A stretch of 27,092 bases of DNA, from positions 1 to 27,092 of IMG/VR virus record IMGVR_UViG_3300023199_000205. One strand, written 5' to 3'. The notes under the pieces were generated by a model. It saw only the letters and a list, made by a program, of their open reading frames with translations, was not told where the DNA came from and ran no database searches. The stretch comes from a virus. Of this stretch, positions 2,691 through 14,437 are shown in pieces. Each line of letters opens with the position of its first letter. Positions within the stretch are counted from its first letter, which is position 1. A program made the position numbers and the translations under genes.

Positions 2691-2868
2691 CGGTCTTCTT
2701 CCCCTTCTTCTTCTTCGGCGCGCCCGACGCGGGCGCGTACTTCTTCCCGGCGTGGATCGCGATCGTCTCACCGAGGAAGAAGCCCGGCGGAGTCCACGGT
2801 CGGTTCTCGACGCGCTTCGGGCCGCGGACGATCGCGTCGCTCCACGGCCGCCAGGTGAGCGCCCTCAC
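2683..2868 (-). CDS. Truncated ASCH-domain-like protein
   Basis: 61 residues from a GTG that overlaps the exonuclease stop. Residues 1-43 ([28 protein letters not shown], then LGETIAIHAGKKY) match the first strand-helix-strand of ASCH (PUA-like, RNA-binding) proteins, with the typical VENR-W and IHAGKK signatures. The rest of the domain, about two thirds, is absent and replaced by a short Lys-rich tail (KKKKGKK). It is therefore either a remnant or a minimal domain. Full-length phage ASCH proteins are about 120-160 residues. Gene overlaps on both sides suggest it is still translated. Confidence 0.6.
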   Translation of the reverse strand: MRALTWRPWSDAIVRGPKRVENRPWTPPGFFLGETIAIHAGKKYAPASGAPKKKKGKKTDG

Positions 2869-3674
2869 TTCTTCGCCCTCCGGAGGACGCGGAAGCGGCT
2901 CTCCTTCGACTCGGTGATCTTCACGTGCGGGAGCATCCCGAGCTCCTCGACGATCGCCTCCTGCACGGCGTCCCGCGCGAGGCCGGCGATCTTCACGTAC
3001 CCCTTCCGGACGGTCTCGCGGTACGTGATCCGCCCGCCCGGGTCGCCCGGGAGGACGCCCTCTTCGGCGTCGCCGAGCTTCCGCACGAGCTTCTGCTTCA
3101 GCTCGCGGATCTTCCGGTCCGCAGCCTTCTTCCGGTCCTCGAGCGTGGCGAGATCCTCGGCCATGACGACCGCCTCGATGTCGAGCTTGACCACCTTGCC
3201 CGCCTCGCGCGGGCCGACGAGCTCCTCGACCGCGGCGGTGTCGTCGTCGCTGCCGTTCGGCTCAGGCGGGTCACCGCGCTCGACGCGCTCCCAGAACTCG
3301 CGCGCCGCCTCGGCGATGCGCTCGATCATCGGTTCGTCGCGCTCGACCCACGCGTAGGCGGGCGGGCTGCCGAAGACCACCGCGGCGACGAGCGCGCGAG
3401 AGGCCCCGGTCACCGCGAGCTGCGCCTGCACCTGCGGCACGACGTCGGGCGGAACACCCTCCTCCCAATCCTCGGCCGCGGTGCGCGAGCGCGTCGTCTT
3501 CACCTCGAACGGCACGTAGAGGTCGCGCAGCCCGGTCACCGCGTTCTCGGAGCGCTCGGGGTTCTCGACCCAGCCGTCCAGCGTGCAACCGAGCCACGGC
3601 CAGACCTTCGAGCGCAGAAGCGCGCCCGTGCGGTTCGCGCGCAGCCCGAGCCCGCGCGCGATGTTCTGCACCAC
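2865..3674 (-). CDS. YqaJ/lambda-exonuclease-like recombinase, C-terminal part of a split gene
   Basis: 269 residues from a GTG at 3674, but this start is probably artificial. It contains the catalytic core of the YqaJ/PD-(D/E)xK exonuclease family: CTLDGW (Asp near residue 33), FEVKTT (ExK near 56-58) and [10 protein letters not shown] (Gln near 81-83). A coiled, Lys/Arg-rich region follows ([24 protein letters not shown], in two parts) and then a C-terminal domain. Such enzymes resect double-strand ends 5' to 3' and hand single strands to RecT. The family's N-terminal helical region is encoded upstream in another frame (to 4047), separated by a 130-bp insertion. Without the insertion the gene would encode 350 residues. 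As it stands the exonuclease is disrupted unless frameshifting restores it. Confidence 0.85.
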
Positions 3675-10358: not shown

Positions 10359-13300
10359 ATGACTGAACCCGCCCCTAATCTTGGACCTCGCGCGCGCGAG
10401 ATCTCCGACGCGATCCAGGCCGCCGAGTACCGGGTGATCCCGCTCGACGAGCTCGCCGAGTGGGAGAAGAACCCGCGGCGCCGCATGGACGAGGGATCGG
10501 ACCGCCTGGCGACGACGATCGGCGCTCTCGGCGTGTGGGGGGCGGACGTCCTCGTGCAGAAGTCGACCGGCCGGATCATCGGCGGACACCTCCGGAAGCT
10601 CGCAGCGGCGAAGCTCGGTCTCGAGGCGGTCCCCTGCAAGGTCCTAGACGTGGACGACGCCCTCGCCGACGCGATCGCGCTCGCCGACAACCGAGCGAGC
10701 GAGTTCGCCGAGTGGGACCCGGAGCCGCTCGCGGAGCTCCTCGAGGACTTCGACCCGACGCTCCGCGCCGAGATGGGGTGGTCGGACGCGGACCTCGACG
10801 CGCTTCTCGAGGACCTCGAGGGCGACGGCGGGGAGGTCCCGAAGACGGAGGGCCCGCCCTTGAAGGATCGGTTCGTTGTCCCGCCCTTCTCGGTCCTCGA
10901 CACGCGGCGCGGGTACTGGCAAGAGCGGCGCCAGGCGTGGATGTCGCTCGGGCTCCGCTCGGAGGAGGGTCGCGGCGGCGGGCTCCTCGGCTTCCCGCTC
11001 ACCGGGCTCGTCGTCGACTACTACGAGCAGAAGCGCGCGGCGGAGAAGAAGACCGGCCGGGAGCTCACGCGGCAGGAGTTCGAGCGCGACTTCCTCGAGA
11101 TCCCGGAGGGCTCTTCGATGGCCGCGACCGGGACGAGCGTCTTCGATCCGGTCGTCTGCGAGATCGCCTACCGCTGGTTCTCCCCGCCCGACGGCCTCGT
11201 CCTCGACCCGTTCGCCGGAGGGAGCGTCCGCGGCGTCCTCGCCTCGAAGCTCGGGCGGCGGTACGTCGGGATCGAGCTCCGGGAGGAGCAAGTCGAGGCG
11301 AACCGCGCGCAGGCCCGCGCGATCTGCGTCGACGCGGTCGAGCCTGTCGAGAAGCTCGACCCGGTCGAGGACCCGGAGGCGCTCACGCCGGTCCAGCGCG
11401 CCGGGGACGTGTGGATGAAGCGAGACGACCTCTTCACCTTCGCCGGCGCCTTCGGCTCGAAGGCCCGCGCCGGGCGCGCGATCGCGGCGGTCTCGTCGGG
11501 TCTGTGCGTCGCCGGCTCCCGCAACGCGCCGATGATCTCCCGGGTCGCCCGGATCGGAGAGGAGGCGGGGATCCCGGTCCGGTGTCACGTCGCCGGCTCG
11601 AAGAAGCTCTCCGATCAGGAGCGCGACGCGGTCGGGCACGGCGCCGAGCTCGTGAAGCACTCGGTGAACTACCTCCGGACGCTCGTCTCGAAGTCGCGCG
11701 CCGACGCCGAGGAGCGCGGGTGGACGCACATCGAGCTCGGTCTCGAGAGCGATCTCTACTTCGAGGTCAACGAGCCGCAGGCCGCGAACGTCCCCGCGGA
11801 GGCGAAGCGCGTCGTCGTGGCCGTCGGCTCCGGGACCGGGCTCGCCTGCGTCCTGCGCGGCCTCGAGAAGGCCGGCCGGTCCGACCTCCCCGTCCTCGGC
11901 GTCTGCGTCGGCTTCGACCCGACGAAGCTCCTCGACCGCCGCGCGCCCGCCGACTGGCGGGACCGGGTCACGCTGGTGAAAGCAACGCAGGACTTCGGGC
12001 AACGCGCGGCGGTGACGACCTTCGCCGGCGTCGACCTCGACCCGCACTACGAGGCGAAGCTCCTCCCCTTCCTCCGCGCCGGCGACTGCGTCTACCTCCT
12101 CGCGAAGAGGACGGTCGACCACGAGGCCGCGCCCGCGCCCGACGAGATGAAGGCGTGGCAGAAGGGGATCCCGCTCGACGAGCTCCGCGCGGTCGCCGCC
12201 CTCTTCAAGGCGCACGACGACGGCCTCACGCAAGGCGCCTTCACGGGCGTGAAGGAGACCGACGTCGCGCGGGCGTGGGCCGCCGGGAAGCTCTACGTCG
12301 TGCGGGACGACGACGGCGCGCCGCGCGTCGCGATCATCGCGTCGAAGGCGCGATCGAAACGGAAGGTCGAGGACTTCACGGGCGCGCGCCGCGCGCAGAT
12401 CCAGAAGGGCGACGTCCACGTCCGGCGCTTCGCCTTCCGCGAGGACTCCGCGCTCTCCTGCGTCGACGCGCTCGGCGAGCTCGTCGGGCCGGAGGCGACC
12501 GCGTGGATCGAAGCCTGGATCGAGCACCCCGGCGATCGCGACGTGGTCGAGGCGCTCGGCGCCGAGCTCGCAGCCGTGAAGATCCGGGCGAGCTCGGAAC
12601 AGGTCGGCGTGTTCAAGCTCGGCGGCCTCGACCGGAAGGTCCGCGACCTCGACGCCGCGGACGTCCCCGCGCTGGCGCGCCTCCCGCTCGCGGTCTCGAC
12701 GACCGACGTGGACGAGCTCGTCGCCGCCCTCGAGAGGGAGGAGGCGGCCTTCGCCGACCACTACAGCGGGTACAACAAGCGGCACACGTGGGCGGCCTGC
12801 GTCCTGCGCGGCTACGGCGGGCGCGCGGACTTCATCATCAAGCCCGCCGAGATGTCGAAGAAGTGGAAGGCGGCGAACGCGGAGAAGCTCGGGTGGGAGC
12901 TCGAAGACACGCCGCTCCGCGCGAAGCTCCCGGAGGTCGAGGCGCTCCTCGAGGAGATCCCCGGAGAGAAGCACCGGATCCGCGTCATGCGCCTCTCGGC
13001 GAAGGAGGGCGAGCTCACGCGGCACGCCGACATCACCGACCCGGACGCGGGGACCGCCGACGGGAAGCTCCTCCGGATCCACTTCCCGCTCGTGACGAAC
13101 GAGGAGGTCCTCTTCGAGTCCTGGCGGATCGACGGCGCGCGCGAGGAGGCTCGGATGCGCGTCGGCGAAGCCTGGTACCTCGACACAAGGAAGCCGCACC
13201 GCGCGCGCAACGCGGGCGCGACCGACCGGCTCCACCTGGTCGTCGACGTCGAGGGGACGGCGGAGATCCGCGAGCTCCTCGCGCGCGCAGACCGGCCCGG

Positions 13301-13937
13301 CGACGGGCTCGGGCTCGTCGAGCCGATCCGCCAGGCGGGCGAGGTGACCGGCCTCCCCTTCGCCGGCGAGCTCGCTCCCGAGCCGCTCCAGACCGAGAAG
13401 GAGGGACCGACCTCCCCGGCCTTCGAGCCAGCGCCGCGCTGGATCCACGGGGACTCGCGGAAGCTCCACGAGCTCCTCGAGGACGAGGCGTTCGACTTCC
13501 TGTTCTCGTGCCCGCCCTACGGCGACCTCGAGGTGTACTCCGACGACCCGGCGGACCTCTCGACCCTCGAGTGGGAGGACTTCCTCGACGCCTACCGGGA
13601 GATCGTCGCGAAGTCGGTCGCGCGCCTCCGGAACGACCGCTTCGCCTGCTTCGTCGTCGGCGACCTGCGGGACGGCGGGACCGGGCTCTACCGCAACTTC
13701 GTGAGCGAGACGATCCGCGCCTTCGAGGACGCCGGCGCGCGGCTCTACAACGAGGCGATCCTCGTCTCGACTCCCGGCGCCCTCCCGATCCGGGCGGGCC
13801 GGATCTTCGAGGCTTCGAGGAAGCTCGGGAAGAACCACCAGAACGTCCTCGTGTTCGTCAAGGGAGACTGGCGGCGCGCCTGCGCGGCGGCCCGCCTCGA
13901 CTTCGACGCCGAGGACCTCGCCCGGACGATCGAGTGA
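10359..13937 (+). CDS. ParB/DNA-methyltransferase fusion with inserted PLP, acyltransferase-like and 2OG-oxygenase domains
   Basis: 1192 residues; ATG with GAAGGGAGAG upstream. Domains in order: ParB-like region (about 22-115; EYRVIPLDELAEWEKNPRRR, GRIIGGHLRKLAA); first half of a phage amino-methyltransferase (about 169-334; VPPFSVLDTRRGYWQERR and AdoMet motif DPFAGG at 283-288); fold-II PLP-dependent enzyme like the ACC-deaminase/tryptophan-synthase beta class (about 343-585; VWMKRDDLF, probable PLP Lys368, phosphate loop GSGTG at 490-494); a possible GNAT-like domain (about 595-750, weak); an Asp/Asn-hydroxylase-like 2OG-Fe(II) oxygenase (about 775-978; His889-x-Asp891, His947, Arg957); and the second methyltransferase half (1027-1192; SCPPYGDLEVYSDDP at 1050). 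The order looks like other enzymes placed inside a methyltransferase. DNA modification is the most likely role; the product is unknown. Confidence 0.85.
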   Translation: MTEPAPNLGPRAREISDAIQAAEYRVIPLDELAEWEKNPRRRMDEGSDRLATTIGALGVWGADVLVQKSTGRIIGGHLRKLAAAKLGLEAVPCKVLDVDDALADAIALADNRASEFAEWDPEPLAELLEDFDPTLRAEMGWSDADLDALLEDLEGDGGEVPKTEGPPLKDRFVVPPFSVLDTRRGYWQERRQAWMSLGLRSEEGRGGGLLGFPLTGLVVDYYEQKRAAEKKTGRELTRQEFERDFLEIPEGSSMAATGTSVFDPVVCEIAYRWFSPPDGLVLDPFAGGSVRGVLASKLGRRYVGIELREEQVEANRAQARAICVDAVEPVEKLDPVEDPEALTPVQRAGDVWMKRDDLFTFAGAFGSKARAGRAIAAVSSGLCVAGSRNAPMISRVARIGEEAGIPVRCHVAGSKKLSDQERDAVGHGAELVKHSVNYLRTLVSKSRADAEERGWTHIELGLESDLYFEVNEPQAANVPAEAKRVVVAVGSGTGLACVLRGLEKAGRSDLPVLGVCVGFDPTKLLDRRAPADWRDRVTLVKATQDFGQRAAVTTFAGVDLDPHYEAKLLPFLRAGDCVYLLAKRTVDHEAAPAPDEMKAWQKGIPLDELRAVAALFKAHDDGLTQGAFTGVKETDVARAWAAGKLYVVRDDDGAPRVAIIASKARSKRKVEDFTGARRAQIQKGDVHVRRFAFREDSALSCVDALGELVGPEATAWIEAWIEHPGDRDVVEALGAELAAVKIRASSEQVGVFKLGGLDRKVRDLDAADVPALARLPLAVSTTDVDELVAALEREEAAFADHYSGYNKRHTWAACVLRGYGGRADFIIKPAEMSKKWKAANAEKLGWELEDTPLRAKLPEVEALLEEIPGEKHRIRVMRLSAKEGELTRHADITDPDAGTADGKLLRIHFPLVTNEEVLFESWRIDGAREEARMRVGEAWYLDTRKPHRARNAGATDRLHLVVDVEGTAEIRELLARADRPGDGLGLVEPIRQAGEVTGLPFAGELAPEPLQTEKEGPTSPAFEPAPRWIHGDSRKLHELLEDEAFDFLFSCPPYGDLEVYSDDPADLSTLEWEDFLDAYREIVAKSVARLRNDRFACFVVGDLRDGGTGLYRNFVSETIRAFEDAGARLYNEAILVSTPGALPIRAGRIFEASRKLGKNHQNVLVFVKGDWRRACAAARLDFDAEDLARTIE

Positions 13938-14437
13938 GGAAGCGGCGCACGAAGGCGGAGCTCGACCCGGGCATCCTCGAGAAGGTCCTCACCGTGATCG
14001 CGGTCGGCGCCGGCCGGAAGGCGGCGGCGCAGCAAGCGGGGATCTCGGAGGAGACCCTTCGGGCTTACGAGCGCATGGGACGCGACGCGTGGGGCCGCCG
14101 CGAGGCCGCGCTCCTCGAGGGCGTCGACCCGGAGCTCGACCCGCGAGACCGCCTCTTCGCCGACTTCTTCGAGCGCTTGCAGAAGGCCGAGTCGAAGACG
14201 AAGGTCTACCTCCTCGGCGTCCTGCAAAAGGCGAGCGGCGGCGACTGGCGCGCGGGCGCGTGGCTCCTCGAGAGGCTCTACCCCGGCGACTACGGGCCGC
14301 GCGTCGACGTCAACGCGAAGCACAGCGGGGAGCTCACGCAGCGGCTCGACCTCTCGAAGCTCTCCGACGACGACCTGTGGCGCCTCCGCCAGATCCAGAA
14401 GAAGCTATCCGAAGGGAAGAAGACCGATTATCGTTGA
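13934..14437 (+). CDS. Terminase small subunit-like protein
   Basis: 167 residues from a GTG overlapping the fusion gene's stop (GTGA). The N-terminal third has a helix-turn-helix (VIAVGAGRKAAAQQAGISEE, TLRAYERMGRDA), as in small terminases that recognise the packaging site. The middle is helical (LFADFFERLQKAESKTKVYL) and WLLERLYPGDYG is a frequent signature of these proteins. Placement just before the large subunit, one gene apart, supports the call. Confidence 0.75.
   Translation: MRKRRTKAELDPGILEKVLTVIAVGAGRKAAAQQAGISEETLRAYERMGRDAWGRREAALLEGVDPELDPRDRLFADFFERLQKAESKTKVYLLGVLQKASGGDWRAGAWLLERLYPGDYGPRVDVNAKHSGELTQRLDLSKLSDDDLWRLRQIQKKLSEGKKTDYR

Follow-up and report, generated by a model that had tools for sequence, protein, structure and literature searches.

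A viral protein with PLP and GNAT-hydroxylase modules nested in a split methyltransferase fold: a candidate one-chain DNA hypermodification enzyme

Thymidine hypermodification, as reportedly described by Lee et al. in 2021, proceeds through 5-hydroxymethyluracil (5-hmU), a kinase and an amino acid:DNA transferase, followed by tailoring with pyridoxal phosphate (PLP), flavin, radical-SAM or acetyltransferase enzymes. Phage systems that attach amino acids to bases and sculpt them there are thus already known, and they also include the CmoA/CmoX/CmoY 5-carboxymethylcytosine system, in which a methyltransferase (MTase)-fold enzyme uses a modified S-adenosylmethionine (AdoMet) to provide a handle for amino-acid chemistry, often with ParB nearby (PMC12783734). 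Here we analysed a viral stretch of 27,092 nucleotides (IMG/VR record IMGVR_UViG_3300023199_000205, positions 1 to 27,092; hereafter the window), in which one open reading frame encodes a 1192-residue protein that joins a ParB domain, both halves of a MTase fold, a PLP enzyme, a GNAT fold and a 2-oxoglutarate (2OG) hydroxylase. It is the full fusion of a conserved virus cassette of MTase, PLP and GNAT-hydroxylase genes. The protein is quite likely a base-hypermodification enzyme of some chemistry. We tentatively favour a one-chain enzyme that would place the amino-acid arm of AdoMet on a base, tailor it with the PLP and hydroxylase domains and so protect the genome.

Amino-acid-tailoring enzymes acting on phage DNA are the feature shared with thymidine hypermodification, and a GNAT-hydroxylase is common to the window and to Mycobacterium phage LilMcDreamy; the difference is that in the window a MTase-fold core would take the attaching role. 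TET and the amino acid:DNA transferase gave no match in the 27-kb record, which is possibly partial, and the control genomes were also silent. CmoX resembles the window protein, as proposed here, in its MTase fold, its use of AdoMet to leave a handle for amino-acid chemistry and its ParB proximity but is a C5-MTase with an SPPC motif. CmoA, the carboxy-AdoMet (Cx-SAM) synthase, was found neither in the window nor in related contigs (0/50), with a positive control, although these records are possibly incomplete and the host might provide the enzyme; phage-encoded Cx-SAM was accordingly rejected as the donor.

The phage ParB-MTase family (PHROG 498; AlanGrant gp1, phiFL3A gp36, Listeria B054 gp77) has the same ParB and MTase folds, the same motif I FAGG and CPPY motif IV, and often lies near terminase genes. 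Its members have about 440-540 residues, whereas the window protein carries 690 additional inserted residues with three further folds. PHROG 498 (DNA methyltransferase) matches it in three stretches (1e-109), and ParB, the motif I half and the CPPY half follow one another in the family order. The parts concerned are:

10359-13937, plus strand: single open reading frame of 1192 residues, in the order ParB, MTase N-terminal half, PLP, GNAT, 2OG hydroxylase, MTase C-terminal half (open frame, ribosome-binding-site-like aagggag, full-length profile matches)
10416-10853, plus strand: ParB N-terminal-like domain, about residues 20-165 (phrog_620, 1.3e-28; ParB_N, 1.5e-4, below cut-off; Noc/ParB PDB chains)
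10863-11360, plus strand: N-terminal half of the MTase fold, residues 169-334 (N6_N4_Mtase, phrog_498, N-half profile 224-326)
11205-11234, plus strand: AdoMet-binding motif I DPFAGGSVRG, residues 283-292 (motif comparison across the family)
13422-13916, plus strand: C-terminal half of the MTase fold, residues 1022-1186 (phrog_498/12517, C-half profile)
13506-13520, plus strand: motif IV SCPPY, residues 1050-1054, with Cys1051 at the D/N/S position (motif comparison)

In-house profiles set the domain borders at residues 20-195 (ParB), 224-326 (MTase N-terminal half), 340-584 (PLP), 591-757 (GNAT), 771-976 (hydroxylase) and 1022-1186 (MTase C-terminal half). Asp_Arg_Hydrox (2.8e-13) and N6_N4_Mtase (7.3e-9) were above the Pfam cut-off; ParB_N and PALP were below it. 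The two MTase halves are contiguous in 42 non-redundant relatives that have no insert (profile gap -13 to +23). In 12 relatives, including the cultured Pam4 and R6L, an insert of 250-462 residues with the PLP enzyme in it separates the MTase halves at this junction, and the window protein carries both the PLP enzyme and the GNAT-hydroxylase at that point. Pam4_70 (829 residues) and Erythrobacter phage R6L gp1 (about 800 residues) thus share the nested PLP enzyme with the window but, unlike it, have no GNAT-hydroxylase; nested PLP-MTase proteins in GenBank carry no assigned role. A full-chain model reached a predicted local distance difference test score (pLDDT) of 69 and a predicted TM score (pTM) of 0.49, with fair to good pLDDT in both MTase halves; its alignment held long colinear rows only, the hydroxylase was poorly modelled there, and fold searches with it returned PLP enzymes only.

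Two side observations concern the same architecture. A Cys-rich domain of about 200 residues lies between the PLP enzyme and the C-terminal MTase half in three related loci (L106, L109, L133), at the place of the window's GNAT-hydroxylase, and it gave no significant Pfam match. At L128:5865-6962 the MTase is fused C-terminally to a domain weakly resembling QueC/PAPS-reductase-like ATP pyrophosphatases, a possible further tailoring enzyme.

The similarity to N6_N4_Mtase and the annotation of solitary relatives as adenine MTases (such as phiFL3A gp36) speak for an ordinary N6A/N4C MTase core, whose methyl group the hydroxylase would oxidise or the PLP and GNAT parts would extend, giving an N-hydroxymethyl-type or derived base; a MTase followed by an oxygenase reportedly has a precedent in phage TET systems. 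We consider this unlikely. Motif IV is CPPY in 54 sampled members, with SPPY mostly in a T4-like partner, and the cysteine at the position usually held by D, N or S hints at non-standard chemistry. A PLP amino-acid enzyme would have no obvious role beside such a core, and more evidence against it comes from the AdoMet-binding loop.

In related enzymes the motif I loop is close to the methionine moiety of AdoMet. Decarboxylated AdoMet is known as an aminopropyl donor. The ParB-MTase genes of Croceibacter phage P2559S and Pseudomonas phage ZRG1 each overlap with a gene for AdoMet decarboxylase, and their motif I reads FAGDTVFG in place of FAGGSVRG. Across the family scan, FAGD[ST]VFG occurs with a neighbouring AdoMet decarboxylase in 46/47 cases and FAGGSVRG without one in 79/80; at the one exception, locus L234, a second enzyme, of the FAGD type, is encoded as well. 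Nine columns separate the two clades, most sharply Gly288-to-Asp and Arg291-to-Phe (window numbering), and among the sampled loci PLP and hydroxylase partners occur in the FAGG clade only. In the simplest reading, the FAGD clade would use decarboxylated AdoMet and the FAGG clade AdoMet with its carboxylate. This covariation suggests transfer of an aminopropyl or aminocarboxypropyl group rather than a methyl group, and it argues against the ordinary MTase core and against the simple methyltransferase of a preliminary description of the window. The P2559S AdoMet decarboxylase restored spermidine in an Escherichia coli speD mutant (PMC9992855). The same overlap of ParB-MTase and AdoMet decarboxylase, with FAGD and not FAGG in motif I, is seen at L154:1456-3301 and L020:2512-4153.

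That the alternative partner of this core is a donor-modifying enzyme also favours a different order of events, in which the insert would make a non-standard donor (modified AdoMet or amino acid) and tailoring would precede transfer by the core. The fold-II PLP enzymes related to the nested domain include 1-aminocyclopropane-1-carboxylate (ACC) deaminase, which is consistent with such a donor. The PLP features are:

11376-12110, plus strand: fold-II PLP enzyme of the ACC deaminase/D-cysteine desulfhydrase type, residues 340-584 (profile and fold matches)
11460-11462, plus strand: PLP Schiff-base lysine Lys368 (GSK), invariant in 18 relatives
11826-11840, plus strand: GSGTG phosphate loop, residues 490-494 (motif)

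The fold comparison with ACC deaminase/D-cysteine desulfhydrase (1j0a) gave Z 22.1, and fold, catalytic lysine and glycine-rich phosphate loop are all present, as the preliminary description had proposed. The other motifs it had named, DPFAGG (283-288), SCPPY (1050-1054) and the oxygenase set described below, were likewise found at the residues given.

The remainder of the insert forms the GNAT-hydroxylase:

12129-12629, plus strand: GNAT-fold domain without the coenzyme A (CoA) motif, residues 591-757 (2pc1, Z 13.8; motif and conservation)
12669-13286, plus strand: 2OG/Fe(II) hydroxylase of the Asp/Asn/Pro amino-acid hydroxylase group, residues 771-976 (PF05118, 2.8e-13; 4p7w; TIGR04531)
13023-13031, plus strand: Fe ligands His889-x-Asp891, invariant in 51 relatives
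13197-13199, plus strand: third Fe ligand His947, invariant in 51 relatives
13227-13229, plus strand: 2OG-binding Arg957, invariant in 51 relatives

A model of this region (51 alignment rows) reached pLDDT 93.3 and pTM 0.89. Its front half (model residues 26-179) aligned with the GNAT 2pc1 over 150 residues. The suggested GNAT-like region is therefore a GNAT by fold; its suggested acyltransferase role finds no support, because the CoA pyrophosphate-binding (Q/R)xxGx(G/A) after beta-4 is absent from the window protein and the relatives compared, and conservation is low (6/162 columns at least 90% conserved, against 48/206 in the hydroxylase). An acetyl-transferring GNAT was rejected for want of this motif, Mom-like GNAT being left aside. 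The hydroxylase half matched L-proline cis-4-hydroxylase (Foldseek 2.3e-11, Z 15.8), a nucleoside-antibiotic hydroxylase (Z 16.5) and AspH (Z 15.6). PF05118 is above its cut-off and TIGR04531 (1.1e-5) below, and the predicted Asp/Asn-hydroxylase-like oxygenase thus stands. With the L-proline cis-4-hydroxylase/Asp-Asn beta-hydroxylase group it shares the fold, the HxD...H...R set and 26-28% identity to 4p7w; it differs in being viral and in having a conserved N-terminal GNAT partner and an invariant HYS.YN motif. Its nearest structures are amino-acid hydroxylases (proline 4- and 3-hydroxylase, AspH) and not the TET/AlkB group, which argues against oxidation of a methyl group laid down by an ordinary MTase core. 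In nearly all relatives, GNAT and hydroxylase are joined as a single two-domain unit, and the insert is therefore counted as two modules (PLP; GNAT-hydroxylase), so that the three inserted folds proposed before are real but not independent. At L017:1061-2980 the hydroxylase is split by an apparent intein of about 230 residues at HYS.YN, and the motif is for that reason likely to belong to the active site.

The same enzymes recur as separate genes. Around viral GNAT-hydroxylase genes, scanned for the best 80 of 313 relatives and hence with approximate neighbour frequencies, 74/90 loci have a DNA MTase (three types occur) within 6 kb and 68/90 a PLP gene, the cassette genes mostly abutting, overlapping or standing one gene apart. 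Fisher tests of neighbour association ignored phylogeny and, for PLP partners, locus sampling as well. The GNAT-hydroxylase family is essentially virus-restricted (2 matches in a prokaryote genome scan) and, among 50,697 phage records, occurs in a cultured phage only in LilMcDreamy. Partial fusions were also found: L027, at a contig edge, joins GNAT-hydroxylase and C-terminal MTase half in one chain, and L030 holds the whole set as two genes, ParB-MTase N-terminal half-PLP and GNAT-hydroxylase-MTase C-terminal half, with a GTGA overlap. The full combination, described before as new, is so only as a complete single chain; the gene combination is common in viruses, PLP is nested in about a dozen relatives, and L027 and L030 are partial or two-chain versions.

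On the MTase tree the PLP partnership changes 13 times and the hydroxylase partnership 9 times. These repeated associations, and the recurrent nesting within the MTase, argue against a MTase that modifies DNA alone while the PLP enzyme and GNAT-hydroxylase have a free metabolite or a protein as substrate, in auxiliary metabolism or anti-defence, and are fused for co-expression only. Such independence would accord with the resemblance of both to free-amino-acid enzymes and with the solitary MTases of the family, which exist without PLP or hydroxylase; we regard it as very doubtful, also because the LilMcDreamy hydroxylase sits in a thymidine-hypermodification-like operon.

LilMcDreamy gp4 is the sole two-domain structural match in BFVD. 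This GNAT-hydroxylase comes after an amino acid:DNA transferase (PF18724, 2.7e-12), and its other neighbours are ParB, a weakly matching TET/JBP-like protein and a P-loop kinase (PF18751). The LilMcDreamy genome gave no N6/N4 MTase match and no PLP match; a hydroxylase without any such MTase speaks against the ordinary MTase core. The sister phage Phelemich has a flavin oxidoreductase at the gp4 slot. AlanGrant, of the same subfamily, has ParB-MTase and PLP at the same genome end, and its ParB is 59% identical to that of LilMcDreamy; since the genome end is shared, the MTase module and the TET/amino-acid-transferase module seem to replace each other at one slot. The LilMcDreamy GNAT-hydroxylase would most simply act on an amino acid already attached to DNA. 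This gene set, attachment and then tailoring, favours a DNA-bound substrate over a donor tailored before transfer, which we consider quite improbable. Two genes (L019:3761-4333 and L024:2571-3152) whose annotation reads terminase small subunit/adenylate kinase are actually PF18751 P-loop kinases (about 1e-71). PF18751 is of the 5-hmU kinase type, and AlanGrant's copy sits with MTase and PLP genes that replace the TET/amino-acid-transferase genes.

For the window protein we infer the following sequence of steps. The ParB part would help docking on DNA, and a Rossmann-fold core assembled from residues ~169-334 and ~1022-1186 would transfer the 3-amino-3-carboxypropyl arm of AdoMet, not its methyl group, to a base. 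The nested PLP enzyme and 2OG hydroxylase would then rework this arm as if it were a free amino acid, by alpha-carbon chemistry and hydroxylation, the GNAT fold may hold or dock the substrate, and the phage genome would be shielded from host nucleases. The split MTase fold with its tailoring inserts, the widespread separate-gene version and the module swap agree with the earlier proposal of a single-chain base hypermodification factory. That this one polypeptide performs a complete hypermodification, as an aminocarboxypropyl transferase evolved from a DNA MTase with tailoring enzymes nested in its own fold, is conceivable, and we advance it with some reserve.

Several points weigh against aminocarboxypropyl transfer followed by tailoring. 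Some cassettes contain other MTase types (SPPY 'MT520', 'MT228') with no tie to aminocarboxypropyl transfer. The LilMcDreamy argument comes from one genome, and AlanGrant, with MTase and PLP, still has the P-loop kinase that belongs to the thymidine route, which this reading does not explain. The joint packing of the two MTase halves is presumed, at a full-chain pTM of only 0.49. The FAGD/decarboxylase association amounts to about one clade (4 parsimony changes) and thus to few evolutionary events; part of the loop sample came from scans picked by similarity to a decarboxylase-linked member, and use of decarboxylated AdoMet does not strictly exclude methyl transfer.

A comparative-genomics paper by Iyer et al. 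in 2013 is said to have predicted DNA modification with altered forms of AdoMet as the source. In the literature searched we found neither the complete single-chain fusion nor the MTase/PLP/GNAT-hydroxylase cassette, nor the covariation of motif I with the decarboxylase, nor anything relevant on aminocarboxypropyl or aminopropyl DNA. The cassette is large, spans hundreds of viral contigs and is apparently unexplored, and it offers a concrete chemical hypothesis, namely that MTase-fold enzymes may use AdoMet as the source of an amino-acid arm for DNA. If true, this would be the first case of AdoMet directly supplying such an arm to DNA, and a sister clade would add aminopropyl from decarboxylated AdoMet; the finding would define a new DNA-modification class, provide new DNA-labelling enzymes and link phage AdoMet decarboxylases to DNA rather than polyamines. 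The cultured carriers AlanGrant, Vincenzo, LilMcDreamy, Pam4, R6L and P2559S make nucleoside mass spectrometry feasible.

The reading frame has no internal stop and a Shine-Dalgarno-like sequence upstream. A frameshift or assembly artefact was rejected, given the one open frame and the natural two-gene split with GTGA overlap in L030. The gene that follows is:

13934-14437, plus strand: terminase small subunit (phrog_4102, 6.9e-21), whose GTG start overlaps the stop of the 1192-residue enzyme (GTGA)

Elsewhere in the window, the minus strand encodes a RecT-like annealing protein (1806-2771), a RecE-like exonuclease (2865-3674) and a tRNA-Gln (ttg; 1487-1559).

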